DNA from: Sciscionella marina DSM 45152 | Lineage (GTDB): Bacteria > Actinomycetota > Actinomycetes > Mycobacteriales > Pseudonocardiaceae | NCBI RefSeq assembly: GCF_000379465.1 | Contig: NZ_KB905392.1 | Location: 372,001 to 436,000 of the forward strand | Direction: 5' to 3' | DNA: 64,000 nucleotides | Part shown: positions 14,448 to 47,643 of the stretch, in pieces | Layout: the number at the start of each line of letters is the position of its first letter | Numbering within the stretch: position 1 is the stretch's first letter | Notes under the pieces: generated by a model | Told to the model about the DNA's origin: nothing | Database searches by the model: none | Seen by the model: only the letters and a program-made list of their open reading frames with translations | Program-made: the position numbers and the translations under genes

Positions 14448-15701
14448 ATGCGCGTGCTGATGCTGTCCTGGGAATATCCACCCGTCGTCGTCGGCGGGCT
14501 GGGCAGGCATGTGCACGCGCTGGCCACGCGCCTCGTCGAGCAGGGGCACGAGGTGGTCGTGCTCTGCCGTCGCGAGGCGGGCACGGACGCCACCACGCAT
14601 CCGAGCACCGATGAGGTGATCCACGGGGTGCGAGTCGTCAGCGTCGCCGAGGATCCGCCGCACCTGGCCTTCGAGGACGACCTGGTCGCGTGGACCCTGG
14701 CGATGGGGCACGCGATGGTGCGTGCGGGCAACCGGCTGCTGCGCGACTGGCGCCCGGACGTGGTGCACGCCCATGACTGGCTGGTAACCCATCCGGCCAT
14801 CGCGCTCGCCGAGCAGTGCGGGATCCCGCTGGTGGGCACCATCCACGCCACCGAGGCAGGGCGGCACGCGGGCTGGCTCTCGCATCCGCTCAACCAGCAG
14901 GTGCATTCGGTCGAGTGGTGGCTCGCCAACCGCGCGGACGCGCTGATCGCCTGTTCCACGGCCATGCGCACGGAGATCGCGCACCTCTTCGAACGTGAGG
15001 AGGACGAGATCACCGTGATCCACAACGGGATCGAGCCGCGCGGCTGGCGCACCAGCCCCCGCAGGACCGCCGCCGCGCGGGAGCACTACGCCCCGGACGG
15101 CGCCCCGCTGCTGCTGTTCTTCGGCAGGCTGGAGTACGAGAAGGGCGCGCAGGATCTGCTCGCCGCGCTGCCCAAGATCCGCCGCGAGCACCCGGGTACC
15201 CGGCTGGTGATCGCCGGAGAGGGACGGCATCTGCCCATCCTGATCGAGCAGGCCCGCAAACTCCGGGTGCGCAGGGCCGTGGATTTCGTCGGGCACCTCG
15301 CCGACCGCGCGCTCGTCGCCGCGATCGGGGCAGCCTCGGTCGTGGTGCTGCCCTCGCGCTACGAACCGTTCGGCATCGCCGCCCTGGAATCGGCCGCGGC
15401 CGGTGCCCCACTGGTGGCCTCCAGGGCCGGCGGGCTCGGCGAGGTCGTCGTGGACGGGGTGACCGGCTGTTCCTTCACCCCGGGCGATGTGTCCGAGCTG
15501 GCCGGGGCCGTCTCCACGGTCCTGCACGCCCCGGCCGCCGCGGCCAAACGAGCCCGCGCGGCCCGGGCCAGGCTCGGCTCCCAGTTCGACTGGTCCAGGA
15601 TCGCCGAGCAGACCGCCGGGGTGTACGCGAATGCGCGGATCCTCGCGCACGGCGAGCTCGGCCGCCCGAAGATCGCCAGCGGGAACGCCTTCCTACGCTG
15701 A
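14448..15701 (+). CDS. GT4 alpha-(1->4)-glucosyltransferase, Rv3032-like
   Basis: 417 residues with the GT-B fold. The N-terminal MLSWEYPPVVVGGLGRHVHAL matches glycogen-synthase-like GT4 enzymes (glucan-synthase GGLG loop). AHDWLVTHPAIALA follows, then the C-terminal domain FGRLEYEKGAQDLLAALP and the nucleotide-sugar site LPSRYEPFGIAALESAAAGA with E-x7-E. It elongates alpha-1,4-glucan from UDP- or ADP-glucose in the cytosol. ATG 14448 lies eight bases after the GH57 stop, in one operon. The last 9 bases overlap the convergent acyltransferase gene. The Rv3032 equivalence is based on gene order and remembered sequence traits. Confidence 0.88.
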   Translation: MRVLMLSWEYPPVVVGGLGRHVHALATRLVEQGHEVVVLCRREAGTDATTHPSTDEVIHGVRVVSVAEDPPHLAFEDDLVAWTLAMGHAMVRAGNRLLRDWRPDVVHAHDWLVTHPAIALAEQCGIPLVGTIHATEAGRHAGWLSHPLNQQVHSVEWWLANRADALIACSTAMRTEIAHLFEREEDEITVIHNGIEPRGWRTSPRRTAAAREHYAPDGAPLLLFFGRLEYEKGAQDLLAALPKIRREHPGTRLVIAGEGRHLPILIEQARKLRVRRAVDFVGHLADRALVAAIGAASVVVLPSRYEPFGIAALESAAAGAPLVASRAGGLGEVVVDGVTGCSFTPGDVSELAGAVSTVLHAPAAAAKRARAARARLGSQFDWSRIAEQTAGVYANARILAHGELGRPKIASGNAFLR

Positions 15702-16481
15702 ATCCCCGTTCCCGGCCTTGCCGCTTCCCGAGTGCCGCAGTGTCTCGGTCAGCGCCTCGGCGGCCTTACGGGACATGTCCGCGACCGCGGCCCGCCGCTC
15801 GGCGTCCGCCTCGTAGTCCTCCACCCGGTTGCGCACCACCCGCGCCGGAGTACCGACGGCGATGGAGTACTCCGGGATGTCCCCGCGCACGACGGCGTGC
15901 GAGCCGAGCACGCTCCCCTTGCCGATCCGGCTGCCGCGCAGTACCGAGACCTTCACCCCGACCCAGGTGTCCTCGCCGATCCGGACCGGGGACTTCACGA
16001 TGCCCTGATCCTTGATCGGCACGTGCACATCCGAGGTCACGTGGTCGAAATCGCAGAGGTACACCCAGTCCGCGACGATCGAGGCCGCCCCGATCTCCAC
16101 ATCCAGGTAGCAGTTGACCGTATTGTCCTTGCCGAACACGACCTTGTCACCGATCCGCAGCGAGCCCTCATGGCACCGGATCGAGTTGCCGTCCCCGATG
16201 TGCACCCAGCGGCCGACCTCCAGCCTGCCGAAACCGGGGCGGCAGTGCAGGTCCACGTGCTTGCCGAGGAACACCATGCCGCGCAGCACCACGTGCGGGT
16301 TGGCGAGCCGGAAGCGCAGCAGCCGCCAGTAGCGCACCAGGTACCAGGGTGTGTAGGCGCGGTTGCGCCGGATCCAGCGCAGCGTGTCCAGGGTCAGGAA
16401 CCTGGCCTGGTCCGGATCCCGCCCGGACCTGCGTACCGCGGCCAGCCGCGAAGCGACCGAGGCGCCCCACATCGAAGTCAT
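15693..16481 (-). CDS. Left-handed beta-helix acyltransferase, Rv3034c-like
   Basis: 262 residues. Residues ~65-215 carry imperfect hexapeptide repeats ([LIV]GxxxxI type), for example IGDKVVFGKDNTV, IGEDTWVGVKVSVLRGSRI and IGKGSVLGSHAVVRGDI. The cofactor-site FDHVTSDVHVPIKDQGIVKSP loop resembles maltose/galactoside O-acetyltransferases. The C-terminus AVGTPARVVRNRVED is typical. Gene order next to the Rv3030-3032 unit mirrors Rv3034c, so it likely acylates a polymethylated or alpha-glucan saccharide. Acyl chain and acceptor are not readable. It is convergent with, and slightly overlaps, the GT4 gene. Confidence 0.85.
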   Translation of the reverse strand: MTSMWGASVASRLAAVRRSGRDPDQARFLTLDTLRWIRRNRAYTPWYLVRYWRLLRFRLANPHVVLRGMVFLGKHVDLHCRPGFGRLEVGRWVHIGDGNSIRCHEGSLRIGDKVVFGKDNTVNCYLDVEIGAASIVADWVYLCDFDHVTSDVHVPIKDQGIVKSPVRIGEDTWVGVKVSVLRGSRIGKGSVLGSHAVVRGDIPEYSIAVGTPARVVRNRVEDYEADAERRAAVADMSRKAAEALTETLRHSGSGKAGNGDSA

Positions 16482-16524
16482 GGTCGGACATTAACGCGTC
16501 GAAGGGTTCCGCGAGGATAGGGGC

Positions 16525-17463
16525 ATGGGCAAACTCATCATCGACACGGACCCGGGCGTGGACGACGCCTTCGCCATCGCGCTCGCCGCACGCGATCCCG
16601 AGGTCGAGCTGCTCGGGGTGACCACGGTATTCGGCAATGTCCCGCTCGAGCACACCACACGTAACGCGCTGCGGTTGCTGAGCCTGTGCGAGCGCACCGA
16701 GGTCCCGGTGGCGGCGGGAGCGGGACGCCCGCTGGTGCACCCCGGTATGCCGCCGGAAGAGACCGTGCACGGCGCCGATGGGCTCTCCGGCCGGTCGCAC
16801 ACCCTGCCCGGGCACCCGCACGGACTGGACGAGCGGCACGCGGTCACCCTGCTCGCCGATCTGCTGCACACGGCGACGGAACCGGTCACCCTCGCCCCGA
16901 TCGGACCGCTGACCAACATCGCCACGCTGCTCGCCGCGCATCCGTGGGCGAAGGCGAAGATCGACCGGATCGTGCTGATGGGCGGTGGGACCGAGGGTGG
17001 CAACGTCACCCCGTCCGCGGAGTTCAACATCTCCTGCGATCCCGAGGCCGCGGCGCGCGTGTTCGGCGAGGACGGGCTGCGCCGGGTGCTCGTCGGGCTC
17101 AATGTCACCAGTCGTACCACCGTGGACGGCGCCTGGCTGCGCTCGCTCGGTGAATCGGGCGCGCTCGGCGCCGCGCTTTGCGGGCTGGTCGACGACTATC
17201 TCGCGCACTACAGCAGCACGCTCGGCGAGGACGCCATCCTGATGCACGATTCCCTCGCCGTCGCCGAGGCGATCCGGCCGGGCATCGTGCACACCGAGGA
17301 GCTGCCCGTCCAGGTCGACACCACGTTCGGCCCGGGACGCGGGGCGACGATCGCCGACCGCCGTCCCGGCGCTTCCGGCGCGCACCTGACCGAGGTCGCC
17401 ACCGGCGCGGATGTCCCGGCGCTGCGCGAACTGTTGCGCAGCACCCTGACTCAGGGCAGGTAG
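16525..17463 (+). CDS. Inosine/uridine-preferring nucleoside hydrolase
   Basis: 312 residues of the IUNH family. The N-terminal calcium-binding signature IIDTDPGVDDAF gives Asp7, Asp9, Asp13 and Asp14. GPLTNIA and VLMGGG-GNVTPSAEFN are the ribose-binding segments, and a catalytic-loop Asp/His region follows at HDSLAVAEAI. It cleaves the N-glycosidic bond of ribonucleosides for base salvage. The start is ATG 16525, 43 bases from the divergent acyltransferase start. The last 13 bases overlap the convergent phosphatase gene. Confidence 0.93.
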   Translation: MGKLIIDTDPGVDDAFAIALAARDPEVELLGVTTVFGNVPLEHTTRNALRLLSLCERTEVPVAAGAGRPLVHPGMPPEETVHGADGLSGRSHTLPGHPHGLDERHAVTLLADLLHTATEPVTLAPIGPLTNIATLLAAHPWAKAKIDRIVLMGGGTEGGNVTPSAEFNISCDPEAAARVFGEDGLRRVLVGLNVTSRTTVDGAWLRSLGESGALGAALCGLVDDYLAHYSSTLGEDAILMHDSLAVAEAIRPGIVHTEELPVQVDTTFGPGRGATIADRRPGASGAHLTEVATGADVPALRELLRSTLTQGR

Positions 17464-35124: not shown

Positions 35125-35371
35125 CTCGCTCGCTTCTGGCTCGTGCCGGATCCGGGTACCCGGGACATGAGCATGCCCCGATAAACAGGCTATCGGGGAG
35201 GTTCGGCGCCCCACGCGCCGGGAACCCGAAACTCGTCAACGTGGCGCCGACCACAGCATCCGGCCGATTCCGGAGGGTCAGCTGACCATGCCACACCAGG
35301 ATCGGGCACACTGGACGGGCGTGTGCCCGAGCTTCGGCACCCGGAAACCAGGACAAGTGCGGAGAGGCGTG

Positions 35372-36997
35372 ATGCGTGTGTCGCCGACAGTTGGGCAGCA
35401 GGTCGAACCTGCAGACCCGGCACTCGACGACAAGTCGGTCGCGGCGAAGCCGGAAACCACCCAGCGAAGCGGCGGCCCACCAGCCCGTCGCGGGGATCGC
35501 CGCCTGTACCGGTTACTCATCCACCCCGCTACCCAGATCGCCGCGGCACTGCTCGGCCTGCTCGGCACCATCGCCACCGCGATCGTGGGTCTCGAGGCCG
35601 GGCGTCTTCCCGAGGACCCGAGCCGGATGTGGTGGTTCACCCTCCCGCAGAGCTGGTTCGACAACCCGAGCACGCTGCGCCTGGTCTTCTACCTCGGCCT
35701 CGCCGCGCTCACTATCGGCTGGTTCACACTCGGCCTCGGGGTGCGTGCGGGACGTTGGCGCATCCGCCAGCTCTGGGCCGTCGGCGGCACCTGGGCGCTG
35801 CCCTGGCTGGTCGCCCCGGTCGCACTGAGCACCGACGTCTACACCTACCTCGGCCAGGGCCTCGTGCTGCGCGCGGGCAACAACCCGTACACCAACGGTC
35901 CCGCGACGGCCGGGCTCACCGATCTGCTCCAGCACCGCATTCCCGGCATCTGGATGGACGTACCGTCCCCGTACGGCCCGGGGTTCATGGGCATCGACTC
36001 GCTGATCGCCCCGCTGGCCCGCGACCATCCGACGACGGCGGTCGTGGTGATGCGGCTGCTGATGCTCGCCGGTCTCGCGCTGGCCGCGATCTGTGTTCCC
36101 CGGGTGGCCCGGTTCGCCGGTACGAACCCGGTGGTGGCCACCTGGATCGGGGTGACCAGCCCGCTCGCGCTCGGTGCCGTGGTGCTGTCCGGGCACAACG
36201 ACGGGCTGATGATCGGGCTCGTGATGGCCGCGCTGGCGCTGTTCACCCGGCGCGACATCCGGTACTCGGCGCCCCTGGCCATCGGTGTGGCCACCTGCGC
36301 GATGATGATCAAGATCCCGGCCGCCGCCGTGGTCGCGATCCTCGGCTTCGCCTGGGCCTACCGCAGCAGGGCGGTCGGCAAACGGGTCACCAGGGTCGGG
36401 ATCGCCTTCGGCATCTGCGTCGTGGTCACCGGCGTCGTCTCGCTGATCACCACGCTCGGGCTGCGCTGGATCAACCTCGACGCCATCAACTCCCCGAGCC
36501 GCGCCGCGCCGACGTTCACCCCGCTGAACGCGATCCAGCGGGCGATCTGTGACCTCGCCATGGACTGGTTCGGCATCGGCGAGGAGACGCTGCCCCGGGC
36601 CAATGTGCTCACCGGGATCCAGATCGTCACCTACCTGTGCGTGCTCGCCCTCGTGATCGCCGTGCTCGCCCGGCTGCCGAAGGTCGGCACCGCGCGGGCG
36701 AGCGCGATCCTGCTGACCGCGGTCATCATCGCCACCCCCGTGTTGTGGCCGTGGTATCTCGTCTGGCCGGTGCTCCTGCTCGGCGCGAGCATGCGCAGCA
36801 GGTGGCGGATCATCCCGATCCTTTTTGCGGGCGGTGCGCTGTTCCTGACCATGGCCGACGGCTCGCCGTACGACATCGGCACGACCGGTTCCGTCATCGA
36901 GGCCCTGCTGGTCATCGCCCTCGCCGTCGCGACCGGCCGCTGGGTGGTACGCAATGTCATCCGTACATCGCGGTCGGAAGTGACCGCTCACGTCTGA
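35372..36997 (+). CDS. GT-C alpha-(1->6)-mannosyltransferase-like membrane protein (MptB/GT87-like)
   Basis: 541 residues, about 12-13 hydrophobic segments. Landmark loops are STDVYTYLGQGLVLRAGNNPYTNGP (first luminal loop with the acidic GT-C residue), VPSPYGPGFMGIDSLIA, and SGHNDGLMIGLVMAALAL, all characteristic of the polyprenol-phosphomannose-dependent alpha-1,6-mannosyltransferase family (MptA/MptB). It would extend lipomannan on the outer face of the membrane using polyprenyl-phospho-mannose. ATG 35372 with GGAGAG five bases upstream is preferred to ATG 35288. It is followed 16 bases later by a second GT-C gene. Confidence 0.83.
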   Translation: MRVSPTVGQQVEPADPALDDKSVAAKPETTQRSGGPPARRGDRRLYRLLIHPATQIAAALLGLLGTIATAIVGLEAGRLPEDPSRMWWFTLPQSWFDNPSTLRLVFYLGLAALTIGWFTLGLGVRAGRWRIRQLWAVGGTWALPWLVAPVALSTDVYTYLGQGLVLRAGNNPYTNGPATAGLTDLLQHRIPGIWMDVPSPYGPGFMGIDSLIAPLARDHPTTAVVVMRLLMLAGLALAAICVPRVARFAGTNPVVATWIGVTSPLALGAVVLSGHNDGLMIGLVMAALALFTRRDIRYSAPLAIGVATCAMMIKIPAAAVVAILGFAWAYRSRAVGKRVTRVGIAFGICVVVTGVVSLITTLGLRWINLDAINSPSRAAPTFTPLNAIQRAICDLAMDWFGIGEETLPRANVLTGIQIVTYLCVLALVIAVLARLPKVGTARASAILLTAVIIATPVLWPWYLVWPVLLLGASMRSRWRIIPILFAGGALFLTMADGSPYDIGTTGSVIEALLVIALAVATGRWVVRNVIRTSRSEVTAHV

Positions 36998-37013: not shown

Positions 37014-38609
37014 ATGGGAAGCAGCACCATCACCCGTCCGAAACGGGAGGTTCCGGCCAACACCGGGAACACCATGCGCCAGTTCGGCTCGAGAACGCAG
37101 TGGTTCGCGCTGATCGCGCTGGTCGTCGGGCTGTTCGCCTACTGGCTGACGCACGCCGGGCTCACCGACGACGGGTACATCACCCTCGACTACGCTCGCG
37201 CGTTCGCCACCGACGGCACCTGGGGCATGACACCGGGGCTCGAATCGAACAGCGCGACCTCCCCGTTCAACGTGCTGCTGCTCGCCGGGCTGATGTTCCT
37301 GGCGAAGCTGATCACCGGAGAGACCTCGCCGATCATCGTGCTCGGCATCGTGACGGTCGCCGCGATGGTGGCCACCGCCGCGTGGTGGTCGGTGATCAGC
37401 AAGCGGCTCGGAATCTCCTGGAGCTCCGCGCTGACCGGGCTGGTGCTCGTCCTGCTCTCCCCGTTCGCGCTCTCCGTGGTCGGCCTGGAGACCCAGCTGC
37501 TGCTCGCCCTGCTCGTCGGGCTGTTCGCCGAGGGACTGCGCGGGCGCCCGGTGCTGTTCGGGGTGCTGGCCGGGCTGACCATCCTCACCAGGCTGGACAG
37601 CGTCATCGTGGTGTTCGCGCTGAGCCTCGCGCTCGCCGGCGTCCGCAGGAAGTGGTGGCGCGCCCTGGTCCCGACCCTGATCGTCGGCCTGCCCTGGTTC
37701 GTGACCAGCTGGCTGACCCTCGGCTCGGCCATACCGGACACGCTCGCCATCAAGCAGCAGACCGAGCTTCCCGGTGGCTGGACCTTCAAGACCGGACTGT
37801 GGCTGTTCGTCTCGAGTGCGAACTCGGCGGTGCCCGCGATCCTCTCGCTCATTCCCGCGGTGCTCGGCCTGATCGCGTTGATCTACTGGGTGGCGAAGGT
37901 GCGCGGCGGACGATTGGCGCCGCTGGCCATCCTCGGTGGCGCGGGAGTGCTGTACTTCCTGGTCTATCTGGCCATCGATCCCGCGGCGTTCCTGTGGTAC
38001 TACGTGCCCACCGTCGCCCTGCTCACCTTCTTCTTCGCCGGCGCGCTCGACCCGCTCTCCATGCGGATCCGCGCCGTCCGCGCCTCGGCCCTGCGCGCGG
38101 TCGTCGGGCTCGTGCTCGCGGTCGGCACCCTGATTCCCGAGCTGCTGCACGGCCTGCCGTGGCAGACCCCGCCGATCTTCGGCAACTGGGCACTGCCGAC
38201 CGAGTACATGCGGATCGGCAATGACCTCGCCACCCGGCTGAACGGCGAGGGCATGCTGGCGCCCGGCGAGGTGGGCACCCTGATGTTCGGCTGTCAGTGC
38301 GACATCATCGACCAGTTCTCCGACCGCGGCGCGGCGATCCCCTATCTGCGCAGGCAGGTGAACAAGGCCGGACCGTTGACCAAGTGGGCCTACGAGCTCA
38401 ACTACGCGAACCTGGATTGGACCAAGCAGCGCACCCCGCTGCGCTGGCGGATGGAGTGGCATCCGGGCTGGATCAGTCCGCGACCGGATGTCTGGAACGT
38501 GCACTCCCCCGGCATCGGACCGGGGCACTTCATCATGCTGCCGATCGACGCGCCCAAGAGCCCGGTCATCTTCCCGCCGGAGAAGCCGTACTACCCGCCC
38601 GAGAGCTGA
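37014..38609 (+). CDS. GT-C membrane transferase, AftB-like arabinofuranosyltransferase candidate
   Basis: 531 residues. About nine to ten membrane segments are followed by a ~150-residue C-terminal extracytoplasmic domain (GFGC-type FGCQCDIIDQFSDRG, WHPGWISPRPDVWNV). The first periplasmic loop has GLTDDGYITLDYARAFA with the Asp-Asp pair typical of GT-C and similar to AftB-type (Rv3805c, GT89) enzymes; LESNSATSPFNVLLLAG follows. Together with ubiA and dprE2 this suggests a decaprenyl-phospho-arabinose-dependent step. It is shorter than AftB of mycobacteria, so the exact linkage made is uncertain. Confidence 0.7.
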   Translation: MGSSTITRPKREVPANTGNTMRQFGSRTQWFALIALVVGLFAYWLTHAGLTDDGYITLDYARAFATDGTWGMTPGLESNSATSPFNVLLLAGLMFLAKLITGETSPIIVLGIVTVAAMVATAAWWSVISKRLGISWSSALTGLVLVLLSPFALSVVGLETQLLLALLVGLFAEGLRGRPVLFGVLAGLTILTRLDSVIVVFALSLALAGVRRKWWRALVPTLIVGLPWFVTSWLTLGSAIPDTLAIKQQTELPGGWTFKTGLWLFVSSANSAVPAILSLIPAVLGLIALIYWVAKVRGGRLAPLAILGGAGVLYFLVYLAIDPAAFLWYYVPTVALLTFFFAGALDPLSMRIRAVRASALRAVVGLVLAVGTLIPELLHGLPWQTPPIFGNWALPTEYMRIGNDLATRLNGEGMLAPGEVGTLMFGCQCDIIDQFSDRGAAIPYLRRQVNKAGPLTKWAYELNYANLDWTKQRTPLRWRMEWHPGWISPRPDVWNVHSPGIGPGHFIMLPIDAPKSPVIFPPEKPYYPPES

Positions 38610-38646: not shown

Positions 38647-41600
38647 TCAGCCCTCGGCTTCCTGAACCCGTGGCTCCACGATCGTGGGTTCGATCTCCCG
38701 GAAGAAGATCCGCGTCGAGGTCAGTCCCGCCGTCTCGTCCGCTTCGGGCAACGCGTCCAGTTCGGCCTTGATGGTCTCTTCCACGGCCAGGTACTTGCGC
38801 CCCGCCCGCAGATCGGCGTCGTTGCGCAGCCGCACGATCATCGGGAACTCGGCGAGCGCGTTCGCGTCGAACAGCCCCGTGGTGTAGATCAGCTGCACCC
38901 CGAGTGCGCGGGCCACGGCACGCTGCAGTTCGAGCAGGTACCCCGCGGAGGCGCGGCCGATCGGGTTGTCCAGGAACAGCACCCCGGAGTGCCGATGCTT
39001 GGCACGTCCGCGATTGTTCGCGCGCAGTGCGGCCATGGTGCAGTAGAGGATGATCGCCGCGGTCAGCTGTTGCCCGCCGGAGAACACGTCACGGATCTCG
39101 GAGACCCGCTGCCGCTCGGTGCGCAGGACCGCGTCGGGCTTGAGCATCTCGATCCGGAACCCCTTGGGCGCGGCGGCGAGCACCCCGCGCAGCAACAGCG
39201 ACATACCCTGTGGGGTCCCGTTCTTCCCGGTTGCCGCCTCGTCCACGACCTCACCGAGGCGCTCCACCAGTTCGGTGTCCTCGAGCGAGCCGAACGCGAT
39301 ACGCAGGAACTCCTGCCCGGACCAGTCGCCGAGCCCATCGGGCAGCCGGGAGACCCGCTGCGCCGAGCGCAGGGTGCGCAGCGCGTCCTCGACCATACCG
39401 TGCAGCCGGGTGATGATCCCGCTGCGGTGCCGGTCGATCGCGGCGAGGTCGTCGGTGAGGGTGCGCAGCCGTGGCCGCAGCGCCTCCGCCCACTCCCCCG
39501 AGTAGGTCGGCAGCTCGGCGCGGCGCACCGCGAGCATCTGCCTGCGCACCGGCACCTGCAGCTGTTCGAACCGGCTCTCGGTGGCGAACTGGGCGAGCGA
39601 GTCAGAGGCCTGGCGCACCCGTTCCTCGGCGCGGTTCGCCGTCTCCTGCGCGTGCGTCCACTCCCCGCGCAGCGTGGCGTACCGGGATCGGGCGGCCTCG
39701 ATATCGCCCTCGAACGGCTCCTGTTCCCCGTCCGGGCGCGCGTCCGTCGAGTCCAGCAACACCCCGAAGCCCTCGGTGCTCGCGCGCGCCGAGGCCAGCG
39801 CCCGTTCCGCGGTTTCGTGTTCGCGAACCCGGCGCTCGTGTTCACGCGCAGCTTCGGACTCCTCGGCGATCGCGGCGTCCACCAGCTGCTGGCCGTGCGC
39901 GATGTCCCGCGGCTGGGGTACTTCGGCCTCGCGTGCCTCAGGCAGCCCGGCCAGCTCGGCCTTGCGGGTCGCGACCAGCGCGATCGCGTTCGACCGCCGA
40001 TTCTCCGCCGCCTCGACCGCGCGGGCCGCGCGTTCCCGCGCCGCCGTGCGCGCCGAGGCGTCCGAACCCTCCGGGGTTTCCAGGAGTTCGCTGGCCAGCT
40101 CGCGCACCTCGGGATCGAGCGCCTCGAACGCGGCCAGGCTCACCGCCTCGGCCCGCTCGGCCTGGTCGAGTTCGGCGCGCAGATCACTGCCGACCTCCAC
40201 CCTGGCGTAGGAGTCCTCGGCCGACCGATAAGTCCTGCGCAGCACCTCGATCGGTTCCTCGGGCGCCGGATCGGCCGCACTGACCTCACCGGCGCCGGGA
40301 ACCTCGGCGAGCTCGGCGCGGGCCCGGTCGGCCGTTCCGGTGTGCCCGTCCGCCGCGCGCTGGTGTTCGGCGGCCTCGGCGCGGGCGAGCTCGGCGACGT
40401 CGCCGGCCTCGGTGGCCCGTTCCGCGGCGCGGGCCACGTTCTCCCGCTCGCGTTGCTCGGCCTCGGTCCACTCGCGCAGGTGTTCGCTCAGCTCGGCGAG
40501 TTCACTGAGCCGCCGCGCGTTCTCCTCCGTCGCGCGCAGTTTTTCGCGCGCGGCGGGCACGCTTTCCCGTAAACCGGCCCGTTCGGTGGCGAGGCGGTCC
40601 AGCTCCTGCTCGCAACGCCGCACCCGCTGCTCGGCCTCGGCCACCGCGGTCTCGGTGAACTCCACCGCCGCGGCGAGCTCGGTGGCGCTGCCCTCCGGGT
40701 ATTCCTCGCGCCAGCGTTCGAGGCGGGCGGCCAGTTCGTCATCGGCACGCTGGCGCTCGGTGAGTTCGGTGAGCCGGTCCTGGCGTTCGGTGTGCCTGCG
40801 GGCGATCGCCTCCTGTTCCCGCGCCGCGGCGTGCGGATCGTAGAGCGCGGGATTCGAGGGCACCACGAAATCCGCGCCCGGTGCGACCCCGCCGGCGCGC
40901 AGGGAATCCGTGGTACCGATGGCGATGAAGGTGTTCGGGTAGAGCTCGCGCTCGGTGAGGATCTGCTTGGCGAACTCCAGCTGGCTCGCCTTGTTCAGCA
41001 GCACCCCGCTCGCCAGCTGCGGCGCGTGCTCGGCGATGCGGGCCCGCTCGGCCACATCCCCGACCGCGGCGAGGAAGGTCCAGCCGGGCCAGGCGGTGAT
41101 GCCCTCCTCCTCGAGTACCGCGCACACCTCGCCGATCTCCGGTGGCGGCGGCAGCAGGTCCCCGCCGGCGAGCGCGAGCCGGGCCTGCTTGTCACTGGCC
41201 TCGGCGACCTCGAGTTCGAGCCGTACCCTTCCGGCCTCGGCACTGGATTCGGCGAGCAGTCTGCGCAGCGCCGAGTAGTCCGAGTCGAGGCGGATGTCCT
41301 CCACATCGAGCAGCGCGGCCAGCCGTGGTTCCGCCTCGAGGACGGCGATCCGTTCCTCCGCCTCGGCCTTGGCCTCGCCGGCGCGCTGATTACGTTCGGC
41401 CGCGGTCGCCGCGCCCTGCCGGGCCTCCTGCAGGGTGAGCTGGGCTGCGGAGTGCGCCTCGCCGATCCGCTCGGCTTCCGCCTCGTGTTCGGCGAGCCGT
41501 TCGCGCGCGGTCTCCAGTGCCTCACCGGCGCGGGCCGCAGCCGAGGTCACGTCCTCGCCCGCCGAATCGAGCAGCCCCTCACCCGCCGCGGTGCGCAGCC

Positions 41601-43077
41601 GGGCGCGCACTTCCTCGACCCGTTCGGCCAGCGCGTCGGCGCGCGCGGTCGCGGTCGCGGCTTCGGAGGTCGCCTCGTTCTGCCGGGCCTGCGCCTGGGC
41701 CGCCCGTTCGGTCTGTTCCGCGGCACTGGCCTGTTCCCGTTCCGCGGCCTGACCCGCGTCCTTGGCAAGGGCGAGCAGTCCGCGCGCGAGTGCCTGCGCC
41801 GCCGCGTTCTTCGCGGCGAGGGCGGGCCGTGCCTTCTCCTCGAGACTGTGCGCCAGTTCGCGCAGCCGCCGCGCGGATTCGGCGGCCCCGCGCTGCTCGA
41901 GCACCGTCGAGGTCTCCCGCCACGCGTCCGCGGTACGCCGGGTCTCGGCGAGTACCTCATCGGCTTCCACGCGTTCGGCTTCGGCTTCGGAGAGCCGCAG
42001 TCCGGCGACCGCGCGCCGCAGCGCGGCCACCTCGGCCGCGGCCCGGCGTCTCGTCGATTCGGCGAGCCCGAGGCTTTCCTGTGCCTCGGTCAGCCCGGCC
42101 TCGTACTCTTCGAGCCGGGCCTGCTCCACATCCACGCGCGCGTCGACCGCGCCCGCGAATCCGGCGAGCTGGGCGTAGACCCGTTCCGCCTCCGCACGGC
42201 AGGCGAGGGTGAGCGCCTCCTCCTTGGCCAGCGGGCCGCACAGTTCGAGCGCCCCGGCCACGAAGTCCCGCTCCACGTTCAGTTCCCCGCGCTGGGCAAG
42301 GCTTTCCGAGTAGTTGGTGAGCACCTCGGCGAGCTCGACCGGTCCGTCCTCGGGGAGCACCGCGCGCAGCAGGAACTCCACGAAGGCCTCGTCGGTGGCG
42401 AAGGAGAACGCGTCCGCAGCCTCGCCCTCGCCTGCGTTCATCGCCCGCTGATAACGGAACAGTTCGGTGTCCAGGCCGAGCATGTCCAGCCGCTCGGTCC
42501 ATTCCCCGCGCCGCCGGGTCCAGAACAGGTCGATCCCCGGGTCCTCGGACTGTGCCTCGCCGAGCCGGTCCCGGAACGCCGAGACGGTGAGCAGCCTGTT
42601 GTCCTTGGTGAGCGGGAGGGTTTCCAGCTCGAGCGCTTCGGAGGGGCGGAAACAGTACCAGGTGTCGATGAGGTTGGCCGGGTCCGCCGAACTGACGTGC
42701 CCGCGCCACTCCGAGACCTTGCCGGTGACCAGCCGCTCCCCCGAGCCGGTGTGCATCCACTCCAGCGCCACGTGCGCCACATCGTTGGGCAGCACGAACT
42801 TCTCCAGCACCCGGGTGCTCGTGGTACCCACCACCTGGCGCCTGCCAGGCAGCATCACCGAGAAGATCAGCTTGATCAGTACCGACTTCCCGCCGCCGTT
42901 CTCCAGGAACAGCACACTCGCCGGGGAGGGACGCCTCGGCGGTTCCGTGACCTCGAGCAGATCTCCTTGCTGGCTCTGCACTTTCGCGCCCGCGCCGGAG
43001 AAATCGAGCAGCACATCCTGGTAGCGCGCGCCAGGCGGACCCACGGAGTGCAGCCGCACCCTCGAAAGCTCGTACAT
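38647..43077 (-). CDS. SMC-like condensin ATPase (MksB/JetC-like)
   Basis: 1476 residues. Head-N holds a degenerate Walker A FLENGGGKSVLIKLIF (residues ~57-72; Leu58 replaces the first P-loop Gly). Coiled-coil arms rich in Ala/Glu/Arg run ~290-640 and ~750-1220, enclosing a globular hinge-like segment ~641-750 (PPPPEIGEVCAVLEEEGITA to FIAIGTTDSLRAGG). Head-C has the signature DVFSGGQQLTAA (1330-1341) and Walker B GVLFLDNPIGRAS, where Asp1370 is followed by Asn1371 instead of Glu. It is the last gene of a response-regulator, kleisin-like, KITE-like, SMC-like operon. AGGAGA precedes ATG 43077. No nuclease partner gene follows. Role inferred: DNA loop extrusion, chromosome handling or plasmid restriction. 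Confidence 0.82.
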   Translation of the reverse strand: MYELSRVRLHSVGPPGARYQDVLLDFSGAGAKVQSQQGDLLEVTEPPRRPSPASVLFLENGGGKSVLIKLIFSVMLPGRRQVVGTTSTRVLEKFVLPNDVAHVALEWMHTGSGERLVTGKVSEWRGHVSSADPANLIDTWYCFRPSEALELETLPLTKDNRLLTVSAFRDRLGEAQSEDPGIDLFWTRRRGEWTERLDMLGLDTELFRYQRAMNAGEGEAADAFSFATDEAFVEFLLRAVLPEDGPVELAEVLTNYSESLAQRGELNVERDFVAGALELCGPLAKEEALTLACRAEAERVYAQLAGFAGAVDARVDVEQARLEEYEAGLTEAQESLGLAESTRRRAAAEVAALRRAVAGLRLSEAEAERVEADEVLAETRRTADAWRETSTVLEQRGAAESARRLRELAHSLEEKARPALAAKNAAAQALARGLLALAKDAGQAAEREQASAAEQTERAAQAQARQNEATSEAATATARADALAERVEEVRARLRTAAGEGLLDSAGEDVTSAAARAGEALETARERLAEHEAEAERIGEAHSAAQLTLQEARQGAATAAERNQRAGEAKAEAEERIAVLEAEPRLAALLDVEDIRLDSDYSALRRLLAESSAEAGRVRLELEVAEASDKQARLALAGGDLLPPPPEIGEVCAVLEEEGITAWPGWTFLAAVGDVAERARIAEHAPQLASGVLLNKASQLEFAKQILTERELYPNTFIAIGTTDSLRAGGVAPGADFVVPSNPALYDPHAAAREQEAIARRHTERQDRLTELTERQRADDELAARLERWREEYPEGSATELAAAVEFTETAVAEAEQRVRRCEQELDRLATERAGLRESVPAAREKLRATEENARRLSELAELSEHLREWTEAEQRERENVARAAERATEAGDVAELARAEAAEHQRAADGHTGTADRARAELAEVPGAGEVSAADPAPEEPIEVLRRTYRSAEDSYARVEVGSDLRAELDQAERAEAVSLAAFEALDPEVRELASELLETPEGSDASARTAARERAARAVEAAENRRSNAIALVATRKAELAGLPEAREAEVPQPRDIAHGQQLVDAAIAEESEAAREHERRVREHETAERALASARASTEGFGVLLDSTDARPDGEQEPFEGDIEAARSRYATLRGEWTHAQETANRAEERVRQASDSLAQFATESRFEQLQVPVRRQMLAVRRAELPTYSGEWAEALRPRLRTLTDDLAAIDRHRSGIITRLHGMVEDALRTLRSAQRVSRLPDGLGDWSGQEFLRIAFGSLEDTELVERLGEVVDEAATGKNGTPQGMSLLLRGVLAAAPKGFRIEMLKPDAVLRTERQRVSEIRDVFSGGQQLTAAIILYCTMAALRANNRGRAKHRHSGVLFLDNPIGRASAGYLLELQRAVARALGVQLIYTTGLFDANALAEFPMIVRLRNDADLRAGRKYLAVEETIKAELDALPEADETAGLTSTRIFFREIEPTIVEPRVQEAEG

Positions 43078-43085
43078 GTTCTCCT

Positions 43086-43877
43086 CTACAGAGTGTCCAC
43101 AGTGGACGTTCGAAGCGATCCGCCGGACTCGGGCACGGTGACCACGCCGAGCTCGAGCAGTTCGGCGAAGGCGTTGTCCGCGGCCAGCTCGCGCACCTGG
43201 ACCTGATAGCGGTGGGTGGTGCGGTACACGCCTTCGGCGTCGGCGTTCACCGCGACCAGAAATCCTTGCTCGGCAAGGAAACGCAGGGCCCGGGACACCA
43301 TTCCCCGCGTACTGTCCGCGGCGAGCCGCCCGTCCTTGGTCGCCGCGGCCTCGGGCCGGCGCATATAGGCCTGCCAGGCGTGCTCGAGTTCCGGGGCGTC
43401 CACCAGCGGATCGCCCTTACCCGCCGCGCGTTCGTCGAGCACCCGGCAGGCCTCGCGTACCACGCCGTCCACCTGCTCCACGCTCACCCTACCGACGTAG
43501 GTGTCGTTGGCCAGATCGTCCGGTCGCGGGAAACCGAGCGCGGCAACGGCGAGATGGATGATCCCGTGCAGCACTTTCTCGGTCTCCCTGCGGTCCCGGA
43601 TCTTGGCCGCACGCGCGTAGGAATCCATCTTGGTCTCGAAGGCGGACTCCTCGTTCGCGGCGAGCACGATTCCGGATCCGGCGCTCACATCCAGCACCAT
43701 GAGCCCCATGCCCGCGGCCACCCCGTTGGTGAGCTGTTTGAAGACGCTGTCCTCGCCGTAGCGGCGCACCAGGTCGGCGTACACCACATCCCGCGAGGGC
43801 ACCTGTTTGGGACGCAGGCCGAACGCGACGAGCCGCGCGGCCGACTCCGCGTCGCTCAGCGTGACATTCGCACTCAT
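43086..43877 (-). CDS. KITE-like accessory subunit of condensin-like complex (MksE/JetB-like)
   Basis: 263 residues from ATG 43877, four bases after the kleisin-like stop and eight before the SMC-like start. The sequence is mostly helical with tandem winged-helix character: AAKIRDRRETEKVLHGIIHLAVAALGFPR, then TRGMVSRALRFLAEQGFLVAVNADAEGVYRTTHRYQVQVREL, a helix-turn-helix-wing with basic residues. Size and position between a kleisin-like and an SMC-like gene match MksE/JetB. I did not recognise a named family from sequence alone; the assignment rests on architecture. Confidence 0.68.
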   Translation of the reverse strand: MSANVTLSDAESAARLVAFGLRPKQVPSRDVVYADLVRRYGEDSVFKQLTNGVAAGMGLMVLDVSAGSGIVLAANEESAFETKMDSYARAAKIRDRRETEKVLHGIIHLAVAALGFPRPDDLANDTYVGRVSVEQVDGVVREACRVLDERAAGKGDPLVDAPELEHAWQAYMRRPEAAATKDGRLAADSTRGMVSRALRFLAEQGFLVAVNADAEGVYRTTHRYQVQVRELAADNAFAELLELGVVTVPESGGSLRTSTVDTL

Positions 43878-43881
43878 CGCT

Positions 43882-45390
43882 CTATGACTCCTGATCCGTA
43901 CCGTCTTCGGCCGTGCCGGTCTCCGCGCTGATCTCCGCCGAGGTGAGCAGCAGCTCGTCGCCGCCGTAGACCTCGGTCTCGATGGTCCGGCCCGTGGCGA
44001 CGGCGACCAACATCCTGCCCTGTCCCGAACGCACCGCCGCACCCACCTCGGGGCTGTAGGCGTGCACCGCGCGCAGCGCGACCAGCCTGGCGAGTTCGGG
44101 ATCGCGTTCGGCCGCCTCGGCGAGCAGCCCGGACAGTTCCCTGCCCACCTCGGGCAGGTCGAGCAGCTCGTCGGCCATCCGCCACTGCTCCTCGCTGAAC
44201 CGTTCGCTGTCCTCGCTCGGGGCCAGCTGGGGGTCGGGCACCTCGCCGACGACCTTCGCGCGTTCCGGGGCCGGCCGCAACAGCAGCGAGACGAGCGAGG
44301 GCAGGGAGGTCGCGGTCGGCGGGCGGATTCCCGCGGCAGCACGGAAATATGCCTCGAGCGGGCGGGCCGCGGTGCCGACCGGCTGATCGAGGATCGGGGT
44401 GAGCAGCTGGCCGTACAGGTCGATCGCGGCGCGCTTGGCTGGGCCGGAGAACTGCTGCCGGTCCTGTTCGGCGCGGAACACCGCACCCGCGGACTGCAAC
44501 CGCGCCTGCAACTGGGTGTGCCTGCGGATGCAGTCGCCGACGATGTCCACCAGTTCCGCGGCCCTGCGCTTCTGCTCGATGTCCTCGGTGTCATCGCGCG
44601 CGGCGGTGATGTCCCGCAGGATCGCGCTCTCCGCGCGGAACCGGGCCTCCACGTGACGCAGTGCGGAATCGAGCAGTTCGGGGATCTCCCGCTCCCAGTC
44701 CACGGCGCGCACATCCCTGCGGGTGGCGTCCAGGCGACCGCGCAGCGTCTCGCCGAACTGCACGGTGCGGTACCGCGCCTGCTCGGCGGCCAGCTTCGCC
44801 TCGGCGAGGCGCCCGGAACTGATCAGGTGCTCCAGCTTGAGTTCCGCGGCGACCTGGGCGGACTCGACATCCGTGTCCAGCGCGCCGACGAGTACGTTGA
44901 TCGCCTCGTCGGTGGCCCGCAGGTAGACTTGACCGTCGGTGCCCGCCCGCTCGACGAGCAGCTTGAAATCGAAGGCACGGCGGCGGTAAGTGCCGCCCTC
45001 GTCGAGTTCCCCGTACACCCGGCGGAATCCGCGGTCCACGGTGCCCACGTTGAGCAGGTTGTCGAGCACCCAGCCGGCCACCCGCGCGTGCTCGGTGTTC
45101 GGCCTGTCGGGAGCCTGCGCGGCCACGAACGGCGTGACCTTGTTGATCATCCGTTCGTGATCGGCCCCGGAGTCGAAGTCCATCGCGATGGTGACCTTGT
45201 CGATCATGTGCAGTGCGATCTCGGCCATCTGGTAGATGCCCGCGTCCACCCAGTCGAGCATGCCCTTGCGCGCGTCCAGATCGTGCAGCGGCGCGGTGCA
45301 CGCGAGCGCCTTCATCCGGCGCGTCATGGCGTCGTCGAGCTCGTAGGTCGGTTCATGCTCGGGCACGGAGACCAACCGTAGTCGGGTCAC
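43882..45390 (-). CDS. Kleisin-like subunit of condensin-like complex (MksF/JetA-like)
   Basis: 502 residues from GTG 45390, whose GTGA overlaps the stop of the response-regulator gene. An N-terminal winged-helix-like region (MLDWVDAGIYQMAEIALHMIDKVTIAMDF) is followed by LDNLLNVGTVDRGFRRVYGELDEGGTYRRRAFDFKLL. Next comes a long helical middle (~170-330) with AAELKLEHLISSGRLAEAKLAAEQARYRT, and an acidic C-terminus. Size and order fit MksF/JetA kleisins that bridge SMC heads. A later GTG (VPEHEPTYE) could start the protein, but the GTGA overlap favours the longer form. Confidence 0.68.
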   Translation of the reverse strand: MTRLRLVSVPEHEPTYELDDAMTRRMKALACTAPLHDLDARKGMLDWVDAGIYQMAEIALHMIDKVTIAMDFDSGADHERMINKVTPFVAAQAPDRPNTEHARVAGWVLDNLLNVGTVDRGFRRVYGELDEGGTYRRRAFDFKLLVERAGTDGQVYLRATDEAINVLVGALDTDVESAQVAAELKLEHLISSGRLAEAKLAAEQARYRTVQFGETLRGRLDATRRDVRAVDWEREIPELLDSALRHVEARFRAESAILRDITAARDDTEDIEQKRRAAELVDIVGDCIRRHTQLQARLQSAGAVFRAEQDRQQFSGPAKRAAIDLYGQLLTPILDQPVGTAARPLEAYFRAAAGIRPPTATSLPSLVSLLLRPAPERAKVVGEVPDPQLAPSEDSERFSEEQWRMADELLDLPEVGRELSGLLAEAAERDPELARLVALRAVHAYSPEVGAAVRSGQGRMLVAVATGRTIETEVYGGDELLLTSAEISAETGTAEDGTDQES

Positions 45391-46067
45391 TCGGGCAGCG
45401 GTTCCACCGGGAGCAGCCCCAGCTCGAACGCGCGGCTCACCGCGTGCGCCCTGCTGGTGGCCTTCAGTGCGTGCCGGATCCCCTTCACGTGCGTGCGCAC
45501 CGTCTCCGGGGCCACGAACAGCTCCTCGGCGATCACCTCGTTGCGCTTGCCGTCCGCCATCAGGCACAGCACCTCGAACTGGCGCTGGGTGATCGCCCAG
45601 TGCACCGCAGGGCGGTTTCCGGGGCGCCCGATGCGCTGCTGGCCGCCCAGCGCCGGATGCACGACCGGGGAACGGCGGCGCACCCGGTCGATCCCGCCGA
45701 GCAGTTCGGTCCCCGCAACGGTGCGCGGCAGCAGCAGGTCGGCCCCCGCGGCGAGCACCCGGTCGGCATAGCTGCCGTGCACCAGCGGTTCGGGGACCAG
45801 CACCGCAACGATCGGCGGATGCTGTGCCCCTTTGAGGGTCGCGGTGAGGTAGCAGGACTCGTCCATCATGGCGTCCAGCAGCACCAGATCGGGGGCCAGC
45901 CGCGCGCAGGTGGGCAGCACCTCGCGGACCCGGCCGATCCGGCCCTGGTACCGCAGCTGTCTGCTGGCCGTGAACTGTTCGCGGATGCCCTCGGCGAACA
46001 ACGGCTCCGCATCTACCACGAGTGCCGTGATGATGGCGCTGTCCACAGTTTCTGCTGCCAAGCCCAT
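45387..46067 (-). CDS. Orphan response regulator, receiver plus LuxR/NarL HTH
   Basis: 226 residues from ATG 46067 (GAGGA four bases upstream). The N-terminal receiver shows ALVVDAEPLFAEGIREQF with the first acidic pocket residue, then the phospho-acceptor Asp in LVLLDAMMDES and a conserved GADLLLPRTVAG. The C-terminal HTH is ITQRQFEVLCLMADGKRNEVIAEELFVAPETVRTHVKGIRHAL, a NarL/LuxR fold. No histidine kinase is nearby. Its last codons overlap the kleisin-like start, so it is translated with the condensin-like genes and probably controls them. The frame upstream of 46067 is non-coding. Confidence 0.88.
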   Translation of the reverse strand: MGLAAETVDSAIITALVVDAEPLFAEGIREQFTASRQLRYQGRIGRVREVLPTCARLAPDLVLLDAMMDESCYLTATLKGAQHPPIVAVLVPEPLVHGSYADRVLAAGADLLLPRTVAGTELLGGIDRVRRRSPVVHPALGGQQRIGRPGNRPAVHWAITQRQFEVLCLMADGKRNEVIAEELFVAPETVRTHVKGIRHALKATSRAHAVSRAFELGLLPVEPLPE

Positions 46068-46228: not shown

Positions 46229-47023
46229 TTACCTACGGTCCGCCGGATGCTCCGGGCTGCCCGCCTGCCCGGGAATCGGCGCACCGGTGACCAGATCCTC
46301 CCGGGTGCGCAGCAGCTGTTCGGCGATCGCCTCGGCGCTGCCCGGTTTCGCGGTGATGTACTCGCCGCCGCCGTTGTCGGTGGTGTAGAACAACACCCGC
46401 CCGGGATCCGGATCGATGTGGTTCACCGGGCTCGGCGCGATGTGCCTGCGGCCGTTGGGCGAGCGCACCGCGACGTAGTACTGCCCCTTGCCGATCGGCC
46501 GGGTGGCGAACACCTCGCGCAACAGGGCGACATCCCCGGTCAGTTCCTCCGGGGCGGTCTCGAACAGTTCCGCACTGGGCACGCTGACCGGGCGGAACCG
46601 CGCGGGCGGAAACGCGGGCAGGGCCGTGACCAGGGCCCCGGGGTCCGGATTCGCCTGCGAGATCCGGACCGTGTTCCCGTCGAGCACCGCGAGCATGGCG
46701 TGGCCGCCGTGACAGGCGAGCAGCGCGCTCACCCCGAACCCGTTCGTGCCGATGATCCAGGCGAAGTACTCCTCCTGGGCACCGGCCAGCATCTGGTAGA
46801 CGCCCTCCAGATCGGCGGTGAACCCGCGCCGGTCCTCCCCGGCCAGCTCGCGCAGCTCGGCGAACGCGGCCAGTTCGGCGTGCGCGCTCGCGTAGGGATC
46901 GTCCTGTTCCCCGCCCGGCATCGGCACGTAGAGCGCATCGGGCAGTTCGCCGACCTTCGCGTACCGCCAGGTGACCGCGAAGGTCTCCGCCGAGAGCCGT
47001 ACCGGGAGGCGAAGCATGGTCAC
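46229..47023 (-). CDS. ESX secretion-associated protein EspG-like
   Basis: 264 residues of the EspG family: an N-terminal LSAETFAVTWRYAKVGELPDALYVP strand-helix, the central LVTALPAFPPARFRPVSVP, and the C-terminal YYVAVRSPNGRRHIAPSPVNHIDPDPGRVLFYTT, a typical EspG ending. EspG proteins chaperone PE/PPE heterodimers in the cytosol before type VII export. GTG 47023 overlaps the stop of the PPE-like gene (GTGA). No ESX ATPase or membrane core is present here, so the trio must use an unlinked ESX system. Confidence 0.85.
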   Translation of the reverse strand: MTMLRLPVRLSAETFAVTWRYAKVGELPDALYVPMPGGEQDDPYASAHAELAAFAELRELAGEDRRGFTADLEGVYQMLAGAQEEYFAWIIGTNGFGVSALLACHGGHAMLAVLDGNTVRISQANPDPGALVTALPAFPPARFRPVSVPSAELFETAPEELTGDVALLREVFATRPIGKGQYYVAVRSPNGRRHIAPSPVNHIDPDPGRVLFYTTDNGGGEYITAKPGSAEAIAEQLLRTREDLVTGAPIPGQAGSPEHPADRR

Positions 47024-47643
47024 TCGCCGCCAATGCCTGGGAATTCCCCCGTTTGCTTCCCCGTCTCGGCGGCGTACTCCGCATACGCGTCCTGGTTCGT
47101 CCGCGCACCGCCGTGGTACGCCCCCGCGTTCACGGCCGCCGACCCTCCCCGCGCCATGAGCACCGGATTGTGCACCGCGCCGAGCCCGCCGCAGTCCGGT
47201 GGCTGCTCGGTGACCGGGACGACCCTTCTCCTCGTCTCCACGAAGGCGTCGACCTGTTCGGCGAGCATGCTCGCCCCGGCCCGGGCGCGTTTGGCGATCT
47301 CGTCCAGCCGGTCACGCAGCGGGGCGAGCGCGGCCAGTGCCGCTTCCGCCGCCGTGCCCTGCCAGCTGCCCGCGAGCGTCGAGCGCACCGCGTGCACCCC
47401 GTCGGCGCCCGCGGCCAGCGAGGCCGAGATCGTGTCCGCGGACTCCCGGGCCCGCTGGTATCCCTCGGGGCCCGCCCCGGAATGGAAGTACTCGTAGATG
47501 CGTGCCGGATCGGCGAAATCGGGCCGGCAACCGCCCGGATGGCGCTGCGCCCACTGCCGCACGAGTGCCTGCGCCGCGGCCGCCCGGTTCGGGGCGGCGT
47601 CGACCATCGAGGCCCGTTCGGCCATCCAGTCCCACAAGGCCAT
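47020..47643 (-). CDS. PPE/WXG-like ESX substrate-type protein
   Basis: 207 residues, helical: ASAGYQRARESADTISASLA-like helices (GPEGYQRARESADTISASLA) and SWQGTAAEAALAALAPLRDRLDEIAKRARAG, where the SWQG turn corresponds to the WxG helix-turn-helix. The C-terminal ~60 residues (VHNPVLMARGGSAAVNAGAYH onward) are Gly/Ala-rich and flexible. In Pseudonocardiales such PPE-like proteins sit between EspG and a PE-like gene. Its ATG shares a base with the PE-like stop (TGATG). Secretion is inferred from family context. Confidence 0.75.
   Translation of the reverse strand: MALWDWMAERASMVDAAPNRAAAAQALVRQWAQRHPGGCRPDFADPARIYEYFHSGAGPEGYQRARESADTISASLAAGADGVHAVRSTLAGSWQGTAAEAALAALAPLRDRLDEIAKRARAGASMLAEQVDAFVETRRRVVPVTEQPPDCGGLGAVHNPVLMARGGSAAVNAGAYHGGARTNQDAYAEYAAETGKQTGEFPGIGGE

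Follow-up and report, generated by a model that had tools for sequence, protein, structure and literature searches.

The window analysed here is a 64,000-nucleotide stretch of the Sciscionella marina DSM 45152 genome (contig NZ_KB905392.1 of assembly GCF_000379465.1, positions 372,001 to 436,000). At 38647-46067 it carries four genes, all on the minus strand, as first described in an initial annotation made from the letters alone. In the order of reading they encode a NarL/LuxR-type regulator with a degenerate receiver (45387..46067, 226 amino acids (aa)), a JetA3-like kleisin (43882..45390), a JetB3-like KITE subunit (43086..43877, 263 aa) and a JetC3-like SMC ATPase, recognised by its PADLOC JetC3 match and its motifs (38647..43077, 1476 aa). 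JetA has 502 aa when read from the GTG at 45390, or 494 aa from the GTG at 45366 (43882-45366), the start favoured by a codon-usage gene caller. The tight spacing first reported holds for jetA/jetB (4 bases) and jetB/jetC (8 bases); the GTGA overlap between the regulator gene and jetA exists only with the 45390 start, the two genes otherwise lying 20 bases apart. No JetD3 nuclease gene was found with them, and the cutter-less operon is not a local accident: such operons occur at conserved sites in Amycolatopsis and its relatives, in Streptomyces and in Frankiaceae.

The operon encodes Wadjet type III subunits

Profile searches place the three Jet proteins in Wadjet type III. JetC matches the PADLOC JetC3 model (PDLC00588) over residues 1-1463 with 1854 bits (E=0), and JetA matches JetA3 with 664 bits (E=4.3e-200), identifying them as the JetC3 and the JetA3 kleisin subunits of that type. 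The match of JetB to JetB3 is weak (16 bits, E=0.0012); together with its predicted fold and the presence of a JetB homologue between JetA and JetC in 80/80 named loci, it points to a JetB3-type KITE protein. These named loci are those holding a JetA relative, three of which (L074, L102, L112) end within JetC. The predicted model of JetB (pLDDT 84) lies nearest to MukE and JetB chains in Foldseek, with no match reaching E 0.001, and that of JetA (pLDDT 70, pTM 0.37) lies nearest to MukF. Because the E-value of the JetA match is above 0.001, its rmsd is very large and helical proteins unrelated to it rank close behind, the likeness to MukF is supportive and not precise.

The kleisin, KITE and SMC identities proposed initially, and with them the kinship to Wadjet JetA-JetB-JetC, are thus upheld by the type III profiles and the predicted folds; the models of the two smaller proteins resemble KITE and, loosely, kleisin chains, so that the case of their being neither, which the annotation had named as fatal to its reading, did not arise. 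The same annotation had pointed to the TIGR02677-TIGR02680 models, and none of the three proteins matched them; we therefore rejected membership of that family set, which belongs to Wadjet type II. NCBIfam as a whole gave nothing above cut-off for JetA, JetB or JetC. In Pfam, neither JetA nor JetC was assigned to a family, and the matches of JetB all stayed below cut-off. Sequence searches of the PDB with a JetA profile and with JetC returned nothing useful, JetC having no match among solved chains at E<=0.01.

The JetC motifs read ENGGGKS (Walker A), FSGGQQ (signature) and LFLDNPIG (Walker B). In the window JetC and the type III JetCs compared, Walker B reads LDNP, with Asn at what is taken, by sequence position, to be the place of the catalytic Glu usual in SMC proteins. 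LDNP is probably a family trait, since JetD-bearing loci and 6/7 distant type III systems share it.

Searches of the window and of the assembly detect no type III nuclease

The JetD Toprim nuclease of Wadjet type III was found neither in the window, where a JetD3 profile gave nothing at E<=1 over six frames (open stretches of at least 50 codons), nor in the assembled genome of S. marina or the other Sciscionella genome, searched with a JetD3 profile built from ten JetD3 proteins (A1; E<=0.01 in genome searches). As the assembly comprises 86 contigs and is 98.3% complete, a JetD3 hidden in a gap is unlikely but possible. A Pfam JetD_C search of the genome found one gene, JetD2, on a different contig from the window operon; it is the last gene of a complete type II operon, JetA2-JetB2-JetC2-JetD2 (534, 443, 1367 and 390 aa; L002, contig C5, 5161-13224). 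The nuclease absence noted initially therefore stands, and it recurs in many relatives.

JetD_C was rejected as the sole test for JetD because its cut-off is 22 bits and genuine JetD3 proteins score from 12.6 to 26.4. We combined A1, PF09983 and PF09664 for Amycolatopsis, used PF09983 and A1 for the S. marina genome, and searched the other family genomes and Streptomyces with A1 alone. As a control, A1 recovered 5/5 genomes matched to JetD-bearing named loci (G129, G197, G272, G308, G379), a mild control only, because four of the five had supplied rows of the profile.

JetA3 is retained throughout Amycolatopsis

Amycolatopsis (n=80 genomes) and Streptomyces (g71, n=315) denote here the genera so taken by the analysis, and genome-wide counts rest on JetA3, with JetB and JetC checked in the loci read. 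JetA3 is present in 180/390 genomes of the window's family and in 80/80 Amycolatopsis genomes. JetD3 was detected by A1 in 68/390 family genomes, a few of the matches being weak. Within Amycolatopsis, A1 found a JetD in 19/80 genomes, Pfam JetD_C in 24/80 and DUF2399 in 28/80; the union of the three is 48/80, which leaves 32/80 with JetA3 in which none of the three profiles detects a JetD-like gene.

These counts bear on the possibility that JetABC still serves in plasmid defence with a nuclease encoded elsewhere, either the type II JetD2 or a host nuclease. The presence of JetD2 in the S. marina genome is in keeping with this, and a JetD elsewhere in the genome, consistently co-occurring with the operon, was what the initial annotation had regarded as contradicting its reading. 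JetD2, however, sits in its own complete JetA2B2C2D2 operon, and the genus-wide count of 32/80 disfavours it as a partner in trans; moreover, retention by whole genera is unlike that of accessory defence genes. We consider a nuclease supplied in trans unlikely, though for S. marina taken singly JetD2 is a possible partner.

The nearest named locus is that of Sciscionella sediminilitoris, 98% identical in JetA. JetD3 directly follows JetC in 11 of the 80 named loci. Most of these loci lie in a conserved core stretch, with rapZ/yvcK/whiA upstream in 41, gap/pgk/tpi downstream in 50 and either in 60 (rapZ, yvcK (as CofD), whiA and gap were Pfam-checked on one locus; pgk and tpi were read by eye). 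Among these 60, the only JetD-bearing locus is that of A. rifamycinica. Close relatives are rare on plasmids in the collection searched, since 9 of 72,556 plasmid records match JetC, none at a single place spanning more than 80% of the JetC length. An extra JetABCD, with nuclease, also occurs beside another JetA3 copy in several genomes of Amycolatopsis and Streptomyces (L156-L159, L261, L262).

The Sciscionella operon is not at the rapZ-yvcK-whiA/gap-pgk-tpi site. It lies, with its regulator, between an EspG-type and PPE-type gene pair (46229-47643), directly upstream of the regulator gene, and a convergent gene on the plus strand (37074-38609), 37 bases from jetC. The convergent orientation of this downstream gene was described correctly, but its identity as a glycosyltransferase was not confirmed, neither Pfam nor NCBIfam giving a match at E<=0.001; it is the adjoining gene (35369-36997) that matches MptB.

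Streptomyces and Frankiaceae carry the same cutter-less operon

JetA3 was found in 60 of 394 genomes of a class-wide sample: 39 in Streptomyces, 19 in family f20 and 2 in the window's family. Across Streptomyces, JetA3 is present in 309/315 genomes (306/308 good assemblies), and JetD3 was detected in 28/315, a count made with A1 and confined to JetD3. None of the six JetA3-less genomes is among the 28, and therefore 281/309 have JetA3 and no JetD3 by this profile. At the locus level, JetD follows JetC in none of the 14 Streptomyces core loci that could be read past JetC; two more (L240, L254) are cut. Three named Streptomyces genomes have two JetA3 copies each, one of which bears JetD (L107, L113, L114). 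The second copy is without JetD in S. filipinensis (L252) and S. avicenniae (L253), and the stretch holding the third (L254) ends within JetC.

The surroundings of the Streptomyces core loci are also conserved, with a large sensor kinase carrying a nitrate-sensing (NIT) domain downstream in 12/13 compared, followed by a Roadblock protein in 4, and a GntR-type gene upstream in 9/13. In S. filipinensis (L252:6403-18623), the core JetABC is followed by such a NIT-domain kinase and a Roadblock protein, an arrangement resembling that of conservons; its JetA scores 626 bits against JetA3 and its JetC 1412 bits against JetC3 in PADLOC, and no PADLOC model reaches E<=0.001 with its JetB. The S. coelicolor tags SCO1631-1634, considered for the jet genes, proved wrong: SCO1631 is HelY (PMC7157823) and SCO1632 and SCO1633 are Tat genes (PMC5001237).

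JetD is likewise absent from 5/5 Frankiaceae loci readable past JetC (L231, L232, L233, L235, L238), out of six such loci. The sixth, L234, ends just behind JetC, and the JetC genes of L232 and L235 are in broken frames.

JetD-less operons keep their motor motifs and appear constrained

Incomplete or frameshifted loci and same-contig duplicates aside, Walker A, signature and Walker B are intact in 75/75 JetD-less and 24/24 JetD-bearing loci, and likewise in 14/14 Streptomyces core loci. Simple Nei-Gojobori estimates of omega for ten JetD-less pairs fall between 0.01 and 0.20 in 28/30 comparisons, with 0.01-0.12 for the Sciscionella pair; six JetD-bearing pairs give 0.08-0.27, and five Streptomyces core pairs (15 comparisons) 0.04-0.26. 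JetD-less loci thus appear to be mostly under strong purifying selection.

We weighed these values against the view that the operon is a decaying Wadjet remnant left after loss of its effector. JetD is indeed missing, and JetD-less lineages arose more than once; candidates for decay are the Pseudonocardia-group pair L161/L162 and the loci with JetC in broken frames (L232, L235, L100), the latter possibly being assembly errors. The low omega of the Sciscionella pair, the intact motifs of all 75 JetD-less loci and the retention of JetA3 in 80/80 Amycolatopsis and 309/315 Streptomyces genomes all speak against it, and decay, disfavoured for most lineages, seems to us very improbable here.

The same intact motor motifs would suit a JetABC that acts on small circular DNA without cutting, silencing or excluding plasmids by extrusion or compaction. 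The sensing of DNA shape and size is ascribed to JetABC and not to JetD in characterised Wadjet, according to the excerpted text of a review (PMC10586767), which adds to the appeal of this idea. The core status of the operon across genera nevertheless fits a chromosomal function more simply, and we regard non-cutting defence as distinctly improbable.

JetD presence has changed repeatedly

A maximum-likelihood tree was built from JetA, JetB and the two ends of JetC and rooted on distant JetD-bearing type III systems; incomplete, frameshifted and duplicate loci were excluded, as was most of the dense Pseudonocardiaceae core clade, leaving 17 loci from Sciscionella and that clade. The outgroup and the earliest ingroup branches carry JetD. 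JetD-less lineages fall into three groups. One unites Sciscionella with Amycolatopsis-Prauserella (bootstrap 99) and has nested JetD-bearing exceptions (L145, L077), and another unites Streptomyces with Frankiaceae (18 tips, bootstrap 100). Parsimony requires 8 changes of JetD state, or 15 losses if JetD was never regained.

One exception looks like a regain. In A. rifamycinica (L077:16704-17750), JetD3 lies behind the core JetC, the last codons of which are altered, and four sister species compared have no JetD. DNA identity to these sisters, in 100-base bins, is ~80-100% from 15600 to 16600, drops in the last hundred or so bases of JetC and resumes after the JetD gene at ~73-92%. The A. rifamycinica JetD is at most 44% identical to other JetDs among the matches listed. 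This JetD at a core locus also speaks somewhat for the trans-nuclease explanation discussed above.

Relaxed JetD-contact residues were sought in the JetD-less lineages and none were found: no residue conserved in the JetD-bearing subunits is lost from the JetD-less JetA, JetB or JetC at the thresholds used, a result that a nuclease acting in trans would also accommodate. The test has little power, because shuffled labels also give about 0.

The regulator is seen next to jetA only in Sciscionella

The initial annotation saw in the operon a possible condensin switched by its adjacent response regulator. The regulator has a LuxR/GerE DNA-binding domain (PF00196, 51.1 bits), and its Response_reg match (PF00072) reaches 20.7 bits, below the cut-off of 30.2, so that a complete phospho-receiver was not recognised. 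Aligned to VraR, it keeps the phospho-acceptor Asp and has Ala in place of the second acidic Asp, Glu in place of Thr and Arg in place of Lys, three positions with roles in phospho-signalling. The term phospho-regulator is therefore doubtful, given the sub-cut-off receiver and the three differing residues.

In favour of signal control are the tight spacing, with its possible GTGA overlap, and the 100% identity of the regulator (226 aa) between the two Sciscionella at dS 0.11. Against it, besides the receiver, is its distribution: outside the window, the regulator gene adjoins jetA in 1/80 named loci, that of the other Sciscionella, four of the 80 loci themselves ending less than 1 kb upstream of jetA. 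Coupling to a response regulator is thus no property of the system as a whole; regulator control of jetABC specific to Sciscionella is possible, and a signal-controlled condensin as originally proposed seems quite improbable. Other lineages have other neighbours, with a GntR-type gene near the operon in Streptomyces and an ordinary response regulator downstream in Actinophytocola. The latter, in a metagenome-assembled genome (L051:10354-10962), is of LuxR type with a good receiver match and lies convergently just behind jetC.

A probable chromosomal DNA motor

Taken together, these results suggest that the operon is a Wadjet type III JetABC that lost JetD and has been retained, through vertical descent, as a DNA motor acting on the chromosome, a reading to which we assign a probability of roughly 60%. 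As close relatives, mostly without JetD, are kept in nearly all Streptomyces and all Amycolatopsis examined, a role as a second chromosome-organising complex is likelier for the operon than one in defence. JetABC would still load on DNA and extrude loops, the activity proposed for MukBEF and for those Wadjet systems that have been characterised; without JetD, such a motor would make loops and no cuts, which is condensin behaviour, and its activity may help to organise or segregate the chromosome alongside the canonical SMC. Sciscionella is the one case in which transcription of the operon may also be tied to the LuxR-type regulator, which is probably not under phospho-control of the usual kind. 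We infer this chromosomal role from the core status of the operon, the signs of selection and the missing effector.

Several observations weigh against this reading. JetA3 is not universal in the window's family, the genome-wide counts rest on that one subunit, and the Streptomyces count covers JetD3 alone. Further copies with JetD exist in Frankiaceae (L236, L237), so the core complex may still work with JetD, and JetD was regained or kept at the core locus in 1/80 Amycolatopsis. The omega ranges of JetD-less and JetD-bearing pairs overlap, and the L161/L162 pair (genus g31) gives 0.28 for JetA, 0.17 for JetB and 0.38 for JetC, perhaps reflecting relaxed constraint. The unchanged conserved residues belong here too. 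In the tree, the third group, Pseudonocardia, mixes JetD-bearing and JetD-less loci, support is only 75-81 at several backbone nodes, and for tip L234 the contig ends behind JetC, so that its JetD state cannot be read. Lastly, some other nuclease, not related to JetD, could be supplied in trans.

A broader proposal, on which we are evenly divided, is that several actinomycete families independently, and more than once, turned type III Wadjet into a nuclease-free core chromosome motor, which would give Streptomyces and the Amycolatopsis group a further condensin-like SMC complex in addition to the canonical SMC. If so, present models of how chromosomes are folded and segregated in multigenomic hyphae and spores would lack a second condensin. 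The profile name would then have led to an SMC complex, with a kleisin gene in almost every Streptomyces examined, being classed as defence, and, to judge from the literature searched, the complex would have been missing from chromosome-biology studies of these antibiotic producers. Wadjet surveys relying on JetA or JetC alone would over-count Wadjet in actinomycetes. Since the tree holds JetD-bearing and JetD-less sister lineages with directly comparable JetABC, it would also offer a replicated natural experiment on the interconversion of defence SMC complexes and housekeeping condensins.

Comparison with known systems

In the excerpted review text, JetABCD in its characterised forms is held to gauge DNA through loop extrusion, switching JetD on when the DNA is circular; complexes of types II and III are described as still to be characterised, and a route from defence to condensin through loss of JetD is already proposed for MksBEF (PMC10586767). 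A 2025 paper, in its available text, describes Wadjet-III as having no hinge channel (PMC12647877). A nuclease-free condensin derived from JetABC thus has precedent as a kind. The literature searched, mostly open-access and in part only as excerpts, contained no nuclease-free type III JetABC and no JetABC core complex in Streptomyces; nor did it contain whole-genus retention of such a complex in actinomycetes or repeated change of JetD state in one tree. MksB is reportedly the subject of a 2024 paper presenting it as a mycobacterial condensin.

The window operon shares the JetA-JetB-JetC order, family and sizes with Wadjet type III JetABCD, the JetD-bearing relatives being 54-67% identical in JetA (70% in A. 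rifamycinica); it differs in having no JetD and in that such operons occupy conserved chromosomal sites in several genera. Wadjet type II JetA2B2C2D2 is the same kind of machine, present as one complete copy in the S. marina genome, and it is to this type that the unmatched TIGR02677-02680 models belong. Smc-ScpAB likewise combines SMC, kleisin and KITE subunits, but the canonical SMC and ScpB genes are separate and elsewhere in the genome (these two being the subunits sought), and no protein of the operon matches the ScpA or ScpB family. P. aeruginosa MksBEF and E. coli MukBEF belong to a different phylum, their SMC subunits have no sequence match to JetC at the thresholds used, and the chromosomal role is, on our side, only inferred. 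With them the window operon nonetheless shares its architecture, a kleisin, a KITE protein and an SMC protein encoded together without a nuclease, and MukF and MukE are the best matches of its JetA and JetB models among solved chains.

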